Position numbers and translations under genes: made by a program. A stretch of DNA of 11,454 nucleotides from Desulfobacterales bacterium. Its GTDB lineage: Bacteria; Desulfobacterota; Desulfobacteria; Desulfobacterales; Desulfobacteraceae. Below the pieces are notes generated by a model. That model saw only the letters and a program-made list of their open reading frames with translations, ran no database searches and was not told the DNA's origin. The DNA is taken from positions 1 to 11,454 of the forward strand of contig JAKSBO010000396.1 in assembly GCA_022361095.1 (NCBI GenBank), in the 5' to 3' direction. Below are positions 3,037-10,955 of the stretch, in pieces (position 1 is the first letter of the stretch; each line of letters starts with the position of its first letter).

Positions 3037-5394
3037 ATGATATATGCTGGCGGGATGAATAAGATATTCGTATCAGTCATTATATGCCTGGCTCTCTTTT
3101 GTTCGCAACTTGATGCCCAAAACGCGGCGGGCCATGACGGCTTCAACGGTCTAGGGCTAACTGAAAATGAAAAGCAATTTATCCGTAACAATCCCTCAAT
3201 TGTTCTGGGAGGGGGCGCCTCTTTTGAGCCGTTTATCATGGCGGACAGTGATGGTTCCATTATCGGGCATGATGCGGAGATCGCACGTTTGATCGGAAAA
3301 ATGGCCGGCCTGGATATTCGCTTTAAGCTGGGAGAATGGTTTGATATTCAAAAACAGGCTGAAGGCAGAGAAATTGACGGATTGACCAGTACGGCACATC
3401 ATCCGGAAAGGACGGCTTTTTGCAGTTACACGCTGCCCTATGTCAAATTCACCAGTTTTGTTTTTGTTCGAAAAGGCAATCCCCTTGGTATTCATCGCCC
3501 TGGGGATCTTTTCCAAAATCGGGGGGCATTCCAAAAAGGCAACCTGGCGTTCACAAAGATTGTTTCTTCCTATGTGGATGATGACAAGAGCAGATATTAT
3601 ACCACCATACACGATGTAATACGGGCTGTGGTCTCTGGTGATGCCGATTTCTTTGTTTTGGATGAAACGGCGTTCTATGTCTCTGCCGGACTTGGACTGG
3701 GCGGTTTTATTGAGCCTGCGTTCCCTTTGGGGGACCCGTTTGATTTATCTTTTTGCCTGCGCAATGACATACCGGAGCTGGTTTCCATTTTCAATAAAGG
3801 GATCAAACGCATTCCCCAAGCTGAAAAGATAAAAATCCGTGATAAATGGTTTGGCTACCAACATCGTTCATCACAAACCGGGGAGGGGGCAGGGATCAGC
3901 CTGACATCCGGCGAAAGGGCTTACCTGATTGAAAAAAAAGTAATACGGGGCTGTCCCGGGGGAAACGGGATGCTGCCGCAACGGGGTATTGCCAGCGATT
4001 TGTTTCCACTGGTTAAGGGCCGGCTGGGTCTGGACAGCAGCCTTTTTTTATACGAAATGAAATCAGGGGATATTGATGCCCTTGTTAAGGGGACATGCGA
4101 TTTTGTCGTGTTCGCGGATTCAAATTACAATCAGCGGGATGACTTAAATTTAACCCGGCCGATTATGTCCTTTCCCTATGTCCTTGCGACAACCATGGAT
4201 AAAATTTATATTGAAGACCTTGGTAATGAAACGGACAAAATATTTGCTGTTTTGAATGCGCCCGTATTTATCGACAGGCTGAAAAGGGCATATCCGGCAA
4301 TTAAGCTTCTGGCTGTACCTGAGATACGTGACGGGCTTGACGCTGTAAGATCCGGCCGGGCATTCGGGTATATTGATTCTTACGTTGCCATGGCCTATGC
4401 CATACAAAACCAGTTAATGCCGGGCATTAAGATTACCGGACAATTAAAGTTTAATGAAGATTTCTGTATGGCCACCAGACAAGAGAATAAGTTACTGGCC
4501 CAGATTCTACAGAAAGTGGTCGGCAGTATCGGCGAAGCAGAGAAGAAAAAAATTCTGGATAAATGGATCTCCGTCAAATATGAAAAAGGAATCAACTACA
4601 CGCTGGTGTGGGGGGTTGCTGCCGCCTCTTTGCTTGTTCTTACCGGCATTGCTTATTGGAACCGCAGTTTAAATAAAGAAAAAAAACGGGCTCAAAAGGC
4701 TTTGGCCGCCCAAAAGGAGGCTGTTAAACAAAATATCAATTTTATAGATATGATTTCCCATGAGTATCGTACGCCCATGTCGGTAATTTTTTCAAGTCTT
4801 GAGCTTATGGAGATGAAGCTGCCCGGGGCCGTGTGTCCAAGTATCAAACCGCAGTTGGATGATTTAAAAAAATCTTCGGAAAGGCTGGTGGATATTTTTA
4901 ATACAGCCCTGCATGAAAAGCGGATTTCTGAAAAGGGAATTTCATCCCATCTTGAAGCTGTGGATTTGAATAATATTATTTTAACAGCCATAGAGTATGC
5001 CCAAGACAGGATGCCGGAAAATGAGATTGTTTTTCATTCTGATTCAACCCGGATTTTTATGAAAGCGGACCCCGATATGATGGGGATTGCCATTGGAAAC
5101 ATACTTAACAATGCCTGCAAATATTCTAAACATAACGCCGCGGTGGAAATCTTTCTTGATAAAACCCAGGATAATGCAGTCATACGTATCAAGGACAATG
5201 GTATCGGTATTCATAAAGATGAACTGCACCGTATTTTTGAAAAATATTACCGTGCTGATTCGGTTCGGGAAATCCCAGGTGCCGGTGTCGGGCTCTATCT
5301 TGTAAAAAAGGTGGTGGAGCAGCATGGCGGAAATATCAGTATTTCCTCCAAATTGGGAAAAGGAACACGGGTGGTTGTCAGGCTGCCTTTATAA
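3037..5394 (+). CDS. Membrane sensor histidine kinase with two periplasmic solute-binding (SBP_bac_3-like) domains
   Basis: The 785-residue protein is probably the sensor of a two-component system. A signal peptide occupies about residues 7-27 (hydrophobic VSVIICLALF, cleavage likely after LDA). Two tandem bacterial solute-binding family-3 type domains follow, about 45-278 and 290-515, and should lie in the periplasm as in BvgS/EvgS-type sensors. One membrane helix lies at about 521-543. A short charged coiled-coil linker joins it to the kinase core. The H-box is ISHEYRTP with phospho-acceptor His575. The N-box is ILNNACKYS (Asn691/Asn692), the G1 box is DNGIGI (Asp720 onward) and the G2 box is GAGVGL (about 748-753), so the ATPase looks intact. 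There is no HAMP, PAS, receiver or Hpt domain, making it simpler than BvgS. The ATG at 3037 puts six residues before a second ATG at 3055, which begins a cleaner signal peptide. Neither has a good ribosome-binding site, so the start is uncertain. The ligand is unknown; amino acids or other small solutes are usual for this sensor fold. Confidence 0.9.
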   Translation: MIYAGGMNKIFVSVIICLALFCSQLDAQNAAGHDGFNGLGLTENEKQFIRNNPSIVLGGGASFEPFIMADSDGSIIGHDAEIARLIGKMAGLDIRFKLGEWFDIQKQAEGREIDGLTSTAHHPERTAFCSYTLPYVKFTSFVFVRKGNPLGIHRPGDLFQNRGAFQKGNLAFTKIVSSYVDDDKSRYYTTIHDVIRAVVSGDADFFVLDETAFYVSAGLGLGGFIEPAFPLGDPFDLSFCLRNDIPELVSIFNKGIKRIPQAEKIKIRDKWFGYQHRSSQTGEGAGISLTSGERAYLIEKKVIRGCPGGNGMLPQRGIASDLFPLVKGRLGLDSSLFLYEMKSGDIDALVKGTCDFVVFADSNYNQRDDLNLTRPIMSFPYVLATTMDKIYIEDLGNETDKIFAVLNAPVFIDRLKRAYPAIKLLAVPEIRDGLDAVRSGRAFGYIDSYVAMAYAIQNQLMPGIKITGQLKFNEDFCMATRQENKLLAQILQKVVGSIGEAEKKKILDKWISVKYEKGINYTLVWGVAAASLLVLTGIAYWNRSLNKEKKRAQKALAAQKEAVKQNINFIDMISHEYRTPMSVIFSSLELMEMKLPGAVCPSIKPQLDDLKKSSERLVDIFNTALHEKRISEKGISSHLEAVDLNNIILTAIEYAQDRMPENEIVFHSDSTRIFMKADPDMMGIAIGNILNNACKYSKHNAAVEIFLDKTQDNAVIRIKDNGIGIHKDELHRIFEKYYRADSVREIPGAGVGLYLVKKVVEQHGGNISISSKLGKGTRVVVRLPL

Positions 5395-5560
5395 CAGCCG
5401 CGGGCCGATCAGAGATATGAGCTGCCGGATTCAGCCTGCAATAAAGTTTGAAAGATCTGAGCAACTTAAACAGACTTTCTTATAAAAATGAAATATTTGT
5501 TTCCGTCCCATCACGGGTTTTCGGTTGGACACTAATTAGGGAAAGGGGGACGCAGGGTCA

Positions 5561-6268
5561 ATGAAAAAGGGATCTGTTATTCTGGTAGAGGACGATGAAA
5601 AGCTTTTAGCAAATCTGGTTGAGCTGCTGTCTCTCAAGGGATTTGATGTGGTTGGGGTATCCTGTGCCCTTGATTTTTTTCAGTGCCTGACAGCAAACCA
5701 CTATGATGTTGCAATTGTAGATATTAACCTGCCCGACAAGTCCGGATTTGAAATTGTTCATCATCTTCGTGAAAACACCCAATTGGGAATTATTGTGATG
5801 ACGGCAAGGGATACAATCAATGATAAGGTCAAGGGGTATGAGTGCGGGGCGGATTACTATTTTGTAAAACCCGTTCACATCAGGGAGCTTGAGGCATCAA
5901 TCAACAATCTGCTGAACCGCCTGGGCAAGGCCGAAGCGCAAAATAACGAGGATGAGGCCCTTGGGGAATGGGAATTCAATGCCGCGCAATTGATTCTTTC
6001 AAACCCCATTGGCAGAGCAATTGATCTGACGGTAAAAGAGTCTGACTTTATCAGGGTTTTGGTTCGAGAATATCCGAATGCTGTTTGCCGGAGCGTGTTT
6101 TTAAAGGCGCTTAACTATGAGGCAACCGGCACCTATGGCGAGCGAGCCCTTTATGTGATGATTACCCGCCTGCGCAGTAAGATCCGGGATGAAACAGGCA
6201 AAGATGCCCCCATCAAAACATTGCGGACCGTTGGGTATTGTTTTTCTGCGCCTGTAAAGTTCGCGTGA
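5561..6268 (+). CDS. OmpR/PhoB-family response regulator (receiver plus winged-helix DNA-binding domain)
   Basis: This 235-residue protein has an N-terminal receiver domain (about 5-120). Its acidic pocket is Glu10/Asp11/Asp12, the phospho-acceptor is Asp54 in VAIVDINLPD, and the conserved switch Thr81 and Lys103 (FVKP) are present. A C-terminal winged-helix domain (about 137-230) has the family's LTVKESDF start, the recognition-helix region around ALYVMITRLRSKI and the terminal hairpin IKTLRTVGYCF. It is expected to bind DNA when phosphorylated, most likely by the kinase ending 166 bp upstream on the same strand. The spacer is long for a coupled pair, so the regulator may also have its own promoter, but I found no convincing -35/-10 pair there. 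Purine-rich GGGAAAGGGGGA and AGGG lie just upstream of the ATG and can serve as ribosome-binding site. The gene converges with the SH3-like gene, the stop codons being 9 bp apart. Confidence 0.93.
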   Translation: MKKGSVILVEDDEKLLANLVELLSLKGFDVVGVSCALDFFQCLTANHYDVAIVDINLPDKSGFEIVHHLRENTQLGIIVMTARDTINDKVKGYECGADYYFVKPVHIRELEASINNLLNRLGKAEAQNNEDEALGEWEFNAAQLILSNPIGRAIDLTVKESDFIRVLVREYPNAVCRSVFLKALNYEATGTYGERALYVMITRLRSKIRDETGKDAPIKTLRTVGYCFSAPVKFA

Positions 6269-7187: not shown

Positions 7188-8027
7188 TTAACCGGGTCCG
7201 CTGCCGTTCTTTAAGATGGTAAATACAGCCATAAGCAAACCCATCAGGATGCTTACAAAAATCATGGCCCGGATCTCTTCCGGTCCAAGTTTTCGGACTG
7301 CGGGGTATTTAACTGCCATGACGATAAGAAAAACAATGACAATAAACGGCAGGGCCGGCAGGTAGAGGTTCATGGATCTTGCCGCAACAATGGAGAGAAC
7401 CAGGCCGATCGCTGCCACGGGGAAAAATGCCCGGGATTTGTTTGGCCGTTGTATCGATCCGGCAAGGCTGAACAGGTTATCGTCCAGGTTGAACCGAAGG
7501 GCGCCTGCGGACAGCAGGGCCAGTATGACCCAGTCGGTGATGCCGAACACAGGCATAAAATAATCATTGCCGGGCATGGGCATTTTCACCAGGAAAAAAT
7601 CCACCAGGGGCGCAGGGCCTGCCATGCCTTCCCGGTAATAGTGGGAAATATCTTCTGCAAAGTTGCGGGTGGGGCCTGAAAAGACACTGAATATGTCGGA
7701 CAGGGCCACGGCCATGCCGATGGGAATCAATTCAGACGGGCGCTTCAGGGGGATGACCAGCCAGTGGCCTGTGACACAGGCCAAAAGCACCAGGGTTGCC
7801 GTGGAAAGGGCCGTAATGATATTGCTTTTCAACCCTGCCCGGCTCACCAGCAGGTAGAGTATTGTAAAAAATAGGGTTAACGCACCGATCCAGATCAGGC
7901 GCCGGGCCGTGGCTGTGCCGATGGTTGGCTCAATCCGGTGTTGATAAATGCGGGTCATCCGGACAAGGCAGGCAATGAGCCCTAGGATAATGATATAATC
8001 AAATCCGGCCCGAACCGTTTCCGGCAC
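7188..8027 (-). CDS. Presenilin/signal peptide peptidase-like (A22, GxGD-type) intramembrane aspartyl protease candidate
   Basis: From the GTG at 8027 the product is 279 residues with about eight membrane helices (roughly 11-27, 44-61, 70-92, 99-117, 157-177, 200-218, 222-240, 253-272). Three features match the A22 family in order. One is Asp111 in ALSDIFSVF, compared with the YDIFWVF or YDLVAV helix of SPP and presenilin. The second is Asp165 in FGITDW, compared with GLGD, followed by LLSAGALRFN, which resembles the ALLLRFD of SPP. The third is PALP at 224-227, the conserved PAL motif. If active it would cleave membrane-embedded helices inside the cytoplasmic membrane. Departures are Ser for Tyr before the first Asp, and Thr for the second Gly of GxGD, so activity is not assured. 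The GTG has no ribosome-binding site, and the open frame extends upstream to 8105 through one more hydrophobic helix, so the real protein may have about 305 residues and nine helices. It lies between the DUF4438 and SH3-like genes. The assignment is by motif reading from memory, not a search. Confidence 0.7.
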   Translation of the reverse strand: MPETVRAGFDYIIILGLIACLVRMTRIYQHRIEPTIGTATARRLIWIGALTLFFTILYLLVSRAGLKSNIITALSTATLVLLACVTGHWLVIPLKRPSELIPIGMAVALSDIFSVFSGPTRNFAEDISHYYREGMAGPAPLVDFFLVKMPMPGNDYFMPVFGITDWVILALLSAGALRFNLDDNLFSLAGSIQRPNKSRAFFPVAAIGLVLSIVAARSMNLYLPALPFIVIVFLIVMAVKYPAVRKLGPEEIRAMIFVSILMGLLMAVFTILKNGSGPG

Positions 8028-8105
8028 GACCCGGCCCAGGGCTTGGAATACAAATGCCCCAAACCCCCAGACCAGATATATACGGACTACAGGTGTTATG
8101 GTTAT
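8028..8105 (-). other. Probable N-terminal coding extension of the presenilin-like gene
   Basis: These 26 codons upstream of the GTG are open in frame and encode a hydrophobic stretch (VVRIYLVWGFGAFVFQALG) that could be a first membrane helix. No ATG, GTG or TTG lies in frame here. The possible starts are CTG at 8075, or ATA at 8105 or 8099. The ATA at 8105 overlaps the DUF4438 stop as ATAA and has GGTGGAG four nt upstream. If the region is not translated, it is a 74-bp spacer (8028-8101) with no other visible feature. Confidence 0.5.
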
Positions 8106-9008: not shown

Positions 9009-10205
9009 TTATTTTTTTAATTTGATGAGAAACGGAATTGCCGTGAAACCTGCCAGGGCGGATATGATAAACATCATGTCCAGGCCGAATGCATCCGCCA
9101 GGGCTCCTGCCGCCACAACCGCTATGGATCTTACGGCAAATGAGAGCATCATGAAAAGCCCATTGGCGGCTGCCGGGCTCTCCTTGGCATTCTCCTGGAC
9201 CAGCGCCAGCATGACAGGGGTGGTTGACAATACGGTGAACCCTGTTATCAAAAGCGAAAGGATCTGGATCACCCCCGTGGTTGTGGCAAATAATAAGATG
9301 GTTACGGGGGCTACGGCCAATGCCCAGAATAACACTCGCCTTCGCCCTAAACGATCGGACAGGGTCCCTGCGGAGAGGATGCCTGCAACACCCATGGCCT
9401 CATACAGGGTCAGTGCCGTGCCGCCCAGCCACAAAGATCCTGTGGCCTGTTCCACATACAGGGTCAAAAACATGCCCATGGAGCCGTGCATCATGGCCCG
9501 GGCCGAAAGGATACCGGCCAGGGGATTGAGCACATGCCGGATCTCTTTGTAGGCCTGGGTTAAAGAGCCCCGCCGTTTTGCTTTTACAGGCTCCTGGGAG
9601 GGCTCCAGGGTGATGAACAGCAGCACCGAGGTGGCCAGGGCCAGGGCCAGGACAAAATGGAACCGGTCCAGACCCAGGTACGATACCGCCGCAACGGCAA
9701 GGATGGGGCCTACCGTCCTTGCAAGTTCGCCGCCGGTCATGAAAAAGCTCATGCCCCGGCCTTTGAATTTGCCCGAATACCTTGCCACCGTCACCGGTGC
9801 AGGCACATGGAACAGGGATACCGAGATACCGGCCACAAATACAAGGACCAGCAGCATACCATAGGAGGGCGCAATGCCGATGAAGCTCATGGGAATGGCC
9901 GTCAGGGTCGGGGCCAGGATCACCAGCCACCGGGCAAGGCCCTTGTTGTCGGCAAACAGGCCAATGAAGGGGTTGGCCAGGGATGGGATCTGCATCACCG
10001 TGGATAAAAGACCTGCCTGGCTCAGGGTAATGGAAAGCTTTTCAATGATCAGGGGCAGCAGGGGGGCCAGAAAGCTTGTGTAAATATCATGGACAAAATG
10101 GGCAAATGCAATGGTGGTGACCCTGGATGCTTGAAAATCTGATGCTTGAAAATTTGACGCTTGAAATTCAGAAGTTTCTACCGAAGTGTTATCTGGTGTT
10201 GTCAT
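9009..10205 (-). CDS. Major facilitator superfamily transporter, Fsr-like (drug/metabolite efflux type)
   Basis: The 398-residue protein has the length and roughly 12 hydrophobic helices of an MFS permease. Its first helix reads [20 protein letters not shown] (35-53), reminiscent of fosmidomycin-resistance (Fsr) type transporters. Loop motif A is recognisable after helix 2 ([12 protein letters not shown], about 82-93) and in the second half ([12 protein letters not shown]). Proton-driven export of a small molecule is the usual activity; the substrate cannot be read from sequence. The cytoplasmic N-terminus carries three tandem pentapeptides, [10 protein letters not shown] and DFQAS (13-27), which are unusual. 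The ATG follows the surE stop without any spacer (TAAATG), and AAAGG inside the end of surE can serve as its ribosome-binding site, so coupled translation with surE is likely. No alternative Met occurs before helix 1, so the start is well supported. Confidence 0.9.
10126..10170 (-). repeat. Three tandem 15-bp repeats in the 5' end of the MFS gene
   Basis: On the + strand the units are gatgcttgaaaatct (10126-10140), gatgcttgaaaattt (10141-10155) and gacgcttgaaattca (10156-10170). The first two differ at one base and the third is more diverged. The unit is a multiple of three, so copy-number change keeps the frame and only lengthens or shortens the cytoplasmic N-terminal tail by five residues per unit. 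Confidence 0.9.
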
Positions 10206-10955
10206 TTAAAAATCAGCCTTTGCAACCACATCCATGGCGGCATGGGCGGTCATGTCGCACTGCAGCGGTGTGATGGAGATAAAGTTTTCAAGCAGGGCGC
10301 CGTCATCAGAGCCTTCACTGGCCTTTGTCTGCTTCATGCTGGCGTACCAGTAGTATGTCAGGTCTCTTGGATTCTGGCGGCGGTCGAACATATTGATCAG
10401 GTTGTTCTCCGCCTGGGATGTAACCTTTGTACCGGCGATCCGGTCAAAGGAAACGGCCGGGGCATTGATGTTCAGGAAAACCCCCGGGGGAAGATCCAGT
10501 GCCATGGCCTTCTCCAGAATAGAGGCTGTGTAGCTTGCCATACCCTGAAAGTCCATATCATCACCGTACTGGATAGAAACGGCAATGGCGGGAATTCCGT
10601 TAATGGCCGCTTCCCGGGCAGCGCCCACGGTACCTGAATAGTTGATGTTTACCCCGGTGTTGGACCCGGCATTGATCCCTGAAATCACAAGATCCGGTGT
10701 CTGGTCACAAATATCAAACAGGGCTAGCTTGACACAGTCGGCCGGGTTTCCGGCAACCGCATGGCCATAGTCATTGTGTCCCATGCGCACTTTTTGGTGT
10801 TTCAGCGGTGTATGCAGGGTGATGCCGTGTCCCACGGCGCTTTTCTCCATATCAGGGGCGGCCAGAATTACCTCATGATCCGATTTTAAGGCATTGAACA
10901 GGGCCCGGATGCCCGGCGCCTGGTACCCGTCGTCGTTAGTCACTAATATTTTCAT
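10206..10955 (-). CDS. surE: 5'/3'-nucleotidase SurE
   Basis: SurE removes phosphate from nucleoside 5'- and 3'-monophosphates in a divalent-metal-dependent reaction and may act on polyphosphate; it is cytoplasmic. The 249-residue length is typical. The signature NDDGYQAPG holds metal ligands Asp8 and Asp9. Ser39 is in MEKSAVGHGIT, the AGNPADCVKLAL segment is at 68-79, and SGINAGSNTG (92-101) supplies Asn95. YSGTVGAAREA follows. All canonical metal-site residues are therefore present. The ATG at 10955 gives MKILVTNDDG, the standard start of the family; the AGGA about 12 nt upstream is a weak, distant ribosome-binding site. It is the first gene of the minus-strand row, abutting the MFS gene with zero spacing, and is divergent from a TetR-type regulator. 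Confidence 0.95.
   Translation of the reverse strand: MKILVTNDDGYQAPGIRALFNALKSDHEVILAAPDMEKSAVGHGITLHTPLKHQKVRMGHNDYGHAVAGNPADCVKLALFDICDQTPDLVISGINAGSNTGVNINYSGTVGAAREAAINGIPAIAVSIQYGDDMDFQGMASYTASILEKAMALDLPPGVFLNINAPAVSFDRIAGTKVTSQAENNLINMFDRRQNPRDLTYYWYASMKQTKASEGSDDGALLENFISITPLQCDMTAHAAMDVVAKADF

Follow-up and report, generated by a model that had tools for sequence, protein, structure and literature searches.

A predicted presenilin fold around an invariant aspartate pair in a Desulfobacter membrane protein: a candidate bacterial branch of intramembrane aspartyl proteases

Presenilin, familiar from Alzheimer's disease, is an enzyme that cuts proteins, and the A22 enzymes have been studied in eukaryotes and archaea; the question raised by the locus dealt with here is whether bacteria have a branch of their own. 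The window (the whole stretch of DNA analysed, 11,454 nucleotides, contig JAKSBO010000396.1 of assembly GCA_022361095.1) is from a Desulfobacter genome, that of a sulfate reducer, and carries on its minus strand a gene whose product is without annotation. A first-pass annotation had put it forward as a divergent bacterial presenilin/signal peptide peptidase (SPP)-like candidate. Two invariant aspartates, an invariant proline (Pro250) and the predicted fold support that proposal, and we consider the protein probably to be an intramembrane aspartyl protease with the presenilin fold, from a branch of that class in bacteria. The evidence is good for the fold and for the conserved site; catalysis, the class of substrate and stepwise cutting are what we infer. 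The features concerned, with residues numbered in the 305-amino-acid frame and literature cited throughout by PMC number, are:

7188..8105, minus strand: gene of the predicted presenilin-fold membrane protein, 305 amino acids from ATA 8105, 279 from GTG 8027
7695..7697, minus strand: codon of Asp137, the putative first catalytic aspartate, in helix 123-142 close to its periplasmic end
7632..7670, minus strand: helix 146-158, TM6a (part of transmembrane helix 6) equivalent by order and spacing in the window model relative to PSEN1 (PMC10290658)
7581..7592, minus strand: strand 172-175, beta1 equivalent by order and spacing relative to PSEN1
7542..7556, minus strand: strand 184-188, beta2 equivalent by order and spacing relative to PSEN1, directly before Asp191
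7533..7535, minus strand: codon of Asp191, the putative second catalytic aspartate, within F-G-[IV]-[ST]-D-W at the start of helix 189-204
7347..7361, minus strand: LPALP (249-253), equivalent of the PAL motif, where helix 251-266 starts

The motifs SDIFSVF, FGITDW, LRFN and PALP are in the frame exactly as first described. The span then given, 7188-8105, is that of the 305-residue frame and stands, but the residue numbers attached to it belonged to the 279-residue open reading frame (ORF) from GTG 8027, so that Asp111, Asp165 and PALP 224-227 of that numbering are Asp137, Asp191 and PALP 250-253 here. Conservation was assessed on 117 aligned sequences, namely 53 rows of alignment A4 (the window protein included) and loci L002-L065, with the loci coming from 40 relatives, a draw from the phylum and named genomes. 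Redundancy is present (L017 is the window again, L023 probably repeats L015, and there are other duplicates), the 117 forming 94, 49, 23 and 10 clusters at 90, 70, 50 and 40% identity, respectively. The protein searches gave 53 and 42 matches, partly overlapping, each having scored only some 8000 candidates that share most words; none of the matches has a precomputed Pfam domain and the named ones are nearly all 'hypothetical protein'.

Asp137, Asp191 and Pro250 are each present in 117/117, as are S140, G144, P145, P185, F187, G188 and W192, with Ala251 in 110, Leu252 in 115 and Pro253 in 116. In most sequences the context of Asp137 is [AS]D-x-x-S-[VW]-x-x-GP. Loss of either aspartate or of the PAL among homologues, which the first-pass annotation had named as fatal to its proposal, is thus not what is found for the two aspartates and the PAL proline. 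For the 47 loci from named genomes the second aspartate was preselected, since it is part of the scan pattern; in the sequences fetched without a pattern holding it, it is nevertheless there in 70/70. Identity among the aligned sequences drops to about 25% while both aspartates and Pro250 stay invariant. The gene is under purifying selection, with nonsynonymous divergence (dN) of 0.07-0.11 and synonymous divergence (dS) of 0.38-0.43 for the window against L002, L003, L005 and L021 (the L005 and L021 figures are identical).

Structure was predicted for the window protein and for a relative, P0086, 15 of the 37 rows of the alignment (A6) used for the second being shared with A4. The top 17 rows of VIA-align for the window model, and the top 22 for that of P0086, are all A22 (predicted models only), with three A22 subfamilies at the top for each model and a wide gap to unrelated rows. 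The predicted fold is accordingly presenilin's and not a transporter's, the latter being the other outcome that had been held to tell against the proposal. In the window model there are nine long helices (4-26, 29-62, 66-88, 95-117, 123-142, 189-204, 230-245, 251-266 and 275-301), of which the last is missing from the eight of the P0086 model. As in A22 enzymes, the two conserved aspartates are predicted on adjacent long helices (123-142 and 189-204) and the PAL (P 117, A 110 and L 115 of 117) precedes the last core helix. PSEN1 has TM6a at 268-277, beta1 at 288-290, beta2 at 377-381 and its aspartates at 257 and 385 (PMC10290658, PMC2405781). In both models a helix and two strands follow in the same order, with spacing to the aspartates that agrees with PSEN1 within a few residues, the P0086 counterparts being Asp150, helix 158-171, strands 184-187 and 196-200, and Asp203.

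Register was deduced from the first and last aligned residues and assumes a gapless last helix. With the window model the PSEN1 rows end at 269 = 452 (nine), 270 = 453 (two) or 272 = 455 (one), a single offset in 12/12, and three rows for the archaeal protein PSH end at 269 = 292 or 268 = 291. This would put Pro250 on PSEN1 433 and PSH 273, LPALP on L432-PAL of PSEN1 and PALP on A273-G-L-P276 of PSH (we take PAL of PSEN1 to be residues 433-435). L432 adjoins PAL in PSEN1 (PMC10290658). With the P0086 model, Pro263 is on PSH 273 in 3/3 rows and on PSEN1 433 in 5/15.

Several results weigh against this interpretation. In the other 10 of those 15 PSEN1 rows PAL is one residue off; Foldseek gave no match at E <= 0.001, and its own superpositions on A22 rows are poor (TM 0.33-0.41). 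By sequence, there is no A22 match in Pfam, NCBIfam or PDB, and Pfam hmmscan of 17 and 37 family members matched none of PF01080, PF04258 and PF06550. The profile-profile comparison with archaeal A22 proteins that the first-pass annotation had called for was negative: hhalign against 37 archaeal PSH (37 of 120 listed matches, Methanomicrobiales by name) gave 0.1-1.3%, that is 0.2% with A4, 0.1% with A3, 0.1-0.2% with the wider alignment and 1.1-1.3% in a core-only run. The A3 path places ADLFSVF on YDAISVY and GVSDW on GMGDL, with PALP not on AGLP, and carries no weight because hhalign scores so low; kinship to A22 therefore rests on fold and motif register rather than on sequence. Other profile matches were weak and are not believed: YndJ (E 0.0042, one of 17 members), Peptidase_A8 or signal peptidase II (E 0.088, two of 17), ATPase_gene1 (E 0.023, one of 37), Vut_1 for the window protein (0.28), EPS_sugtrans (4.8), a PDB nascent chain (0.28) and two PHROGs of unknown function (0.29-0.35).

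The site itself also differs. The residue before the first aspartate is A in 76 sequences, S in 36 and another in 5, with the Tyr of the A22 YD motif in 0/117; that before the second (residue 190) is S in 83, T in 31 and A in 3, with the Gly of GxGD again in 0/117. G219A in MCMJR1/PSH slows activity considerably, as does Gly-to-Ala in presenilin and SPP (PMC2947513), and gamma-secretase activity is virtually abolished by larger residues at G382/G384 (PMC10290658). Activity may thus be low, and catalysis with Ser, which is small, or Thr, which is larger, at this position is plausible, not given. Further, the aspartates are on the fifth and sixth long helices in both models, not on TM6 and TM7; the match to presenilin begins at the second helix, leaving two helices before the first aspartate helix where presenilin has four (TM2-TM5). 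Because YD, GxGD, the TM6/TM7 placement and a profile match are all lacking, the protein is not filed in the A22 sequence families. Finally, no conserved partner or substrate gene was seen outside the DUF4438-type loci described below.

Of the alternatives, the one that survives best, though we hold it unlikely, is that a presenilin fold has been kept without a protease role, in a receptor, scaffold or channel whose two aspartates bind an ion or proton. The absence of both YD and GxGD from all 117 sequences would suit it, as would the family-specific invariants S140, G144-P145 and W192, for which we know of no A22 counterpart. The structure of archaeal PSH has, moreover, been described with a water-filled hole that passes small ions (PMC12067869). 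However, the constancy of both aspartates and Pro250 down to such low identity speaks against it, and the strand pair before the second aspartate, present in both models, is what PSEN1 requires to clamp its substrate (PMC10290658). It is far less probable that the models are wrong and that the two aspartates and PALP arose by convergence in some other membrane fold, a transporter or else, given that both models are confident, come from alignments that differ in part and have only A22 at the top, with PAL in register or one residue off. A prepilin-peptidase-type (A24) enzyme can virtually be dismissed: A24 indeed comprises prokaryotic GXGD di-aspartate proteases (PMC2947513), but the own genome has a separate A24 enzyme elsewhere (G000 C397, 1.1e-18), no match to Pfam A24 (PF01478) is found in the window protein or 17 members, and the A22 fold matches already contradict it. 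Even with a presenilin fold, common descent need not follow, since convergence has been suggested as a possibility even between presenilin and SPP (PMC2947513).

How a presenilin-fold protease of this kind would work can be set out on paper, on the basis of the models. The water-activating pair would be Asp137 and Asp191, which sit on neighbouring long helices and have LPALP next to them; helix 146-158 and strands 172-175 and 184-188 would act as TM6a, beta1 and beta2 and hold the substrate, once unwound, as an extra strand. Lysine and arginine are denser in loops 2, 4, 6 and 8 than in loops 1, 3, 5 and 7 in 117/117 (0.158 versus 0.054 per residue, with loops delimited as in the window model), a positive-inside pattern that argues for an N-terminus inside and an Asp-Asp loop turned to the periplasm, as in SPP. 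The SPP catalytic centre is turned opposite to that of presenilin, which may explain its choice of type II helices (PMC7366577). From the SPP-like orientation, likely substrates would be N-in helices: remnants of signal peptides, and stubs left from type II proteins.

The orientation argument is affected by where translation starts, since a start at GTG 8027 would lose the first helix and make it weaker. The longer form, with one extra N-terminal helix, is favoured because the homologues P0003, P0004 and P0038 begin near the position equivalent to 8105; the database entries P0002 and P0022 have the shorter start and 279 residues. At 8102-8105 the start overlaps the DUF4438 stop of the upstream gene as ATAA, for which L004 has ATGA (ATG start, TGA stop). 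ATA is at the junction in the window, L002, L003, L006, L007 and L011 (as ATAA in the window, L002 and L003), in L002, L003, L006, L007 and L011 no ATG is in frame within a 30-base stretch there, and GGAG closely precedes the junction in the window, L002, L003 and L004. The sequence suggests initiation at ATA 8105. The stop codon is at 7188-7190.

The neighbouring genes are:

10206..10955, minus strand: SurE nucleotidase, head of the gene run (PF01975, 3.6e-61)
9009..10205, minus strand: MFS transporter, same gene run (PF07690, 1.5e-44), in 15/15 relatives' loci L002-L016
8102..8998, minus strand: DUF4438 protein (PF14505, 4.5e-60; PF20999, 1.6e-53), in 15/15 relatives' loci L002-L016
6278..7180, minus strand: SH3-domain protein, next downstream (PF08239, 7.2e-09), beside the gene in 2/15 loci (L002 and L004 only)

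The order surE, MFS, DUF4438, presenilin-like gene is head to tail; on the minus strand between 6000 and 11200 there is no promoter-like match, and terminator-like matches number 7 against 6.9 in shuffles. In five of the 47 loci from named genomes (L019, L020, L021, L023 and L025, where the match position of L023 is that of L015 and the two are probably one contig) DUF4438, MFS and SurE are again beside the gene; in the other 42, several of them short, they are not. Conversely, G013 (L077), a 100% complete Desulfobacter genome, has SurE, MFS and DUF4438 in a row and no presenilin-like gene, the run being followed on the opposite strand by a protein that by eye is TPR-like, so that the presenilin-like gene is an accessory one. 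Gene-free loci with short flanks retain MFS and DUF4438 (G021, G022) or DUF4438 alone (G024). We judge that no operon neighbour is a fixed partner, be it substrate or cofactor. No neighbour cluster is common to more than seven of the 48 loci L018-L065, with crude ORF calling that missed DUF4438 in some. DUF4438 evolves much more slowly than the presenilin-like gene beside it, identity to the window in L013-L016 being 82-85% for the former and 39-45% for the latter (83-85% and 41-45% in L013-L015). Elsewhere in the window, on the plus strand, 1-2988 encodes a repeat-rich protein of 995 amino acids with no Pfam match at 0.001, resembling large surface adhesins by eye only, and 3037-6268 a sensor kinase that carries the solute-binding domain SBP_bac_3 and then a response regulator with Trans_reg_C.

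The gene is patchy and accessory. Among 40 relatives it is in 15 of the 18 other members of the genus and 0/21 genomes outside it, and in the phylum draw in 2/297, the own genome being one. A one-pattern scan of named genomes gave the 47 loci, titled Desulfobacter, Desulfosediminicola, Desulfobacterales, Desulfobacteraceae, Desulfocapsaceae, Desulfuromonadales and genera thereof, and Geobacteraceae, with the remaining titles giving Deltaproteobacteria only or, in one (L024), Proteobacteria. No plasmid matched the window protein (for PSH a single Natrinema record did), and viral contigs gave 17 pattern matches with no relative among them. PF06550 is in 0/147 genomes of the class and 0/198 of the phylum, with H. 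volcanii and M. acetivorans as positive controls (2/14 control genomes); the 0/198 for PF04258 carries no information, as no control genome matched it either.

Among the open-access literature matches listed no bacterial presenilin or SPP is described, one passing phrase apart, which we take to mean archaeal PSH. That phrase, 'bacterial presenilin homologue', is in PMC8396450; in a 2025 review (PMC12067869) the aspartyl signal peptidase of bacteria is LspA, and presenilin is that of mammals with an archaeal homologue. The fuller proposal, to which we lean with less assurance, is that working proteases of presenilin fold have a third branch, in bacteria, with a G-x-[ST]-D-W site, changed helix order and SPP orientation, which cuts signal-peptide remnants in Desulfobacterota and was missed by the profiles tried and found by predicted structure. 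If active, it would extend the A22-type enzyme class to bacteria in a form invisible to ordinary sequence searches; the presenilin fold would then be in all three domains of life, the Gly before the second aspartate would not be essential and two of nine canonical helices would be dispensable. A bacterial relative this small, in which GxGD is naturally substituted and the core helices are fewer, would be a test of what catalysis needs of presenilin and could be a tractable system.

Compared with known systems, PSH/MCMJR1 (PF06550; 4hyc, 4hyg, 4y6k) has YD and GMGD where the Desulfobacter protein has [AS]D and G[IV][ST]DW, has its aspartates on TM6 and TM7 (PMC12067869) rather than on the fifth and sixth long helices, and gives no profile match to it. 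SPP/SPPL (PF04258; SPPL2a 9k92, 9k93) has no sequence match either and its motifs differ in the same way; the Desulfobacter protein has helices beyond the match (model range 33-273) at both ends. Relative to PSEN1 in gamma-secretase (6idf, 6iyc), it is predicted in the opposite orientation, no partner subunits are seen, and only 46 residues separate its two aspartate helices. Type IV prepilin peptidase and FlaK (A24) are likewise prokaryotic di-aspartate membrane proteases, with GxGD there and no A24 sequence match here. SppA is a known bacterial remover of signal peptides, and RseP, according to an abstract, is another. Replacement of SppA, suggested by the own assembly (G000, 1178 contigs) having no S49 match where 37/40 genomes overall do, is ruled out by S49 in 15/15 other carrier genomes, which makes the gap in G000 probably one of assembly; M50 is present in the own genome. 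SppA (S49) and RseP (M50) do the job that is proposed here, the removal of signal peptides, and belong to unrelated families.
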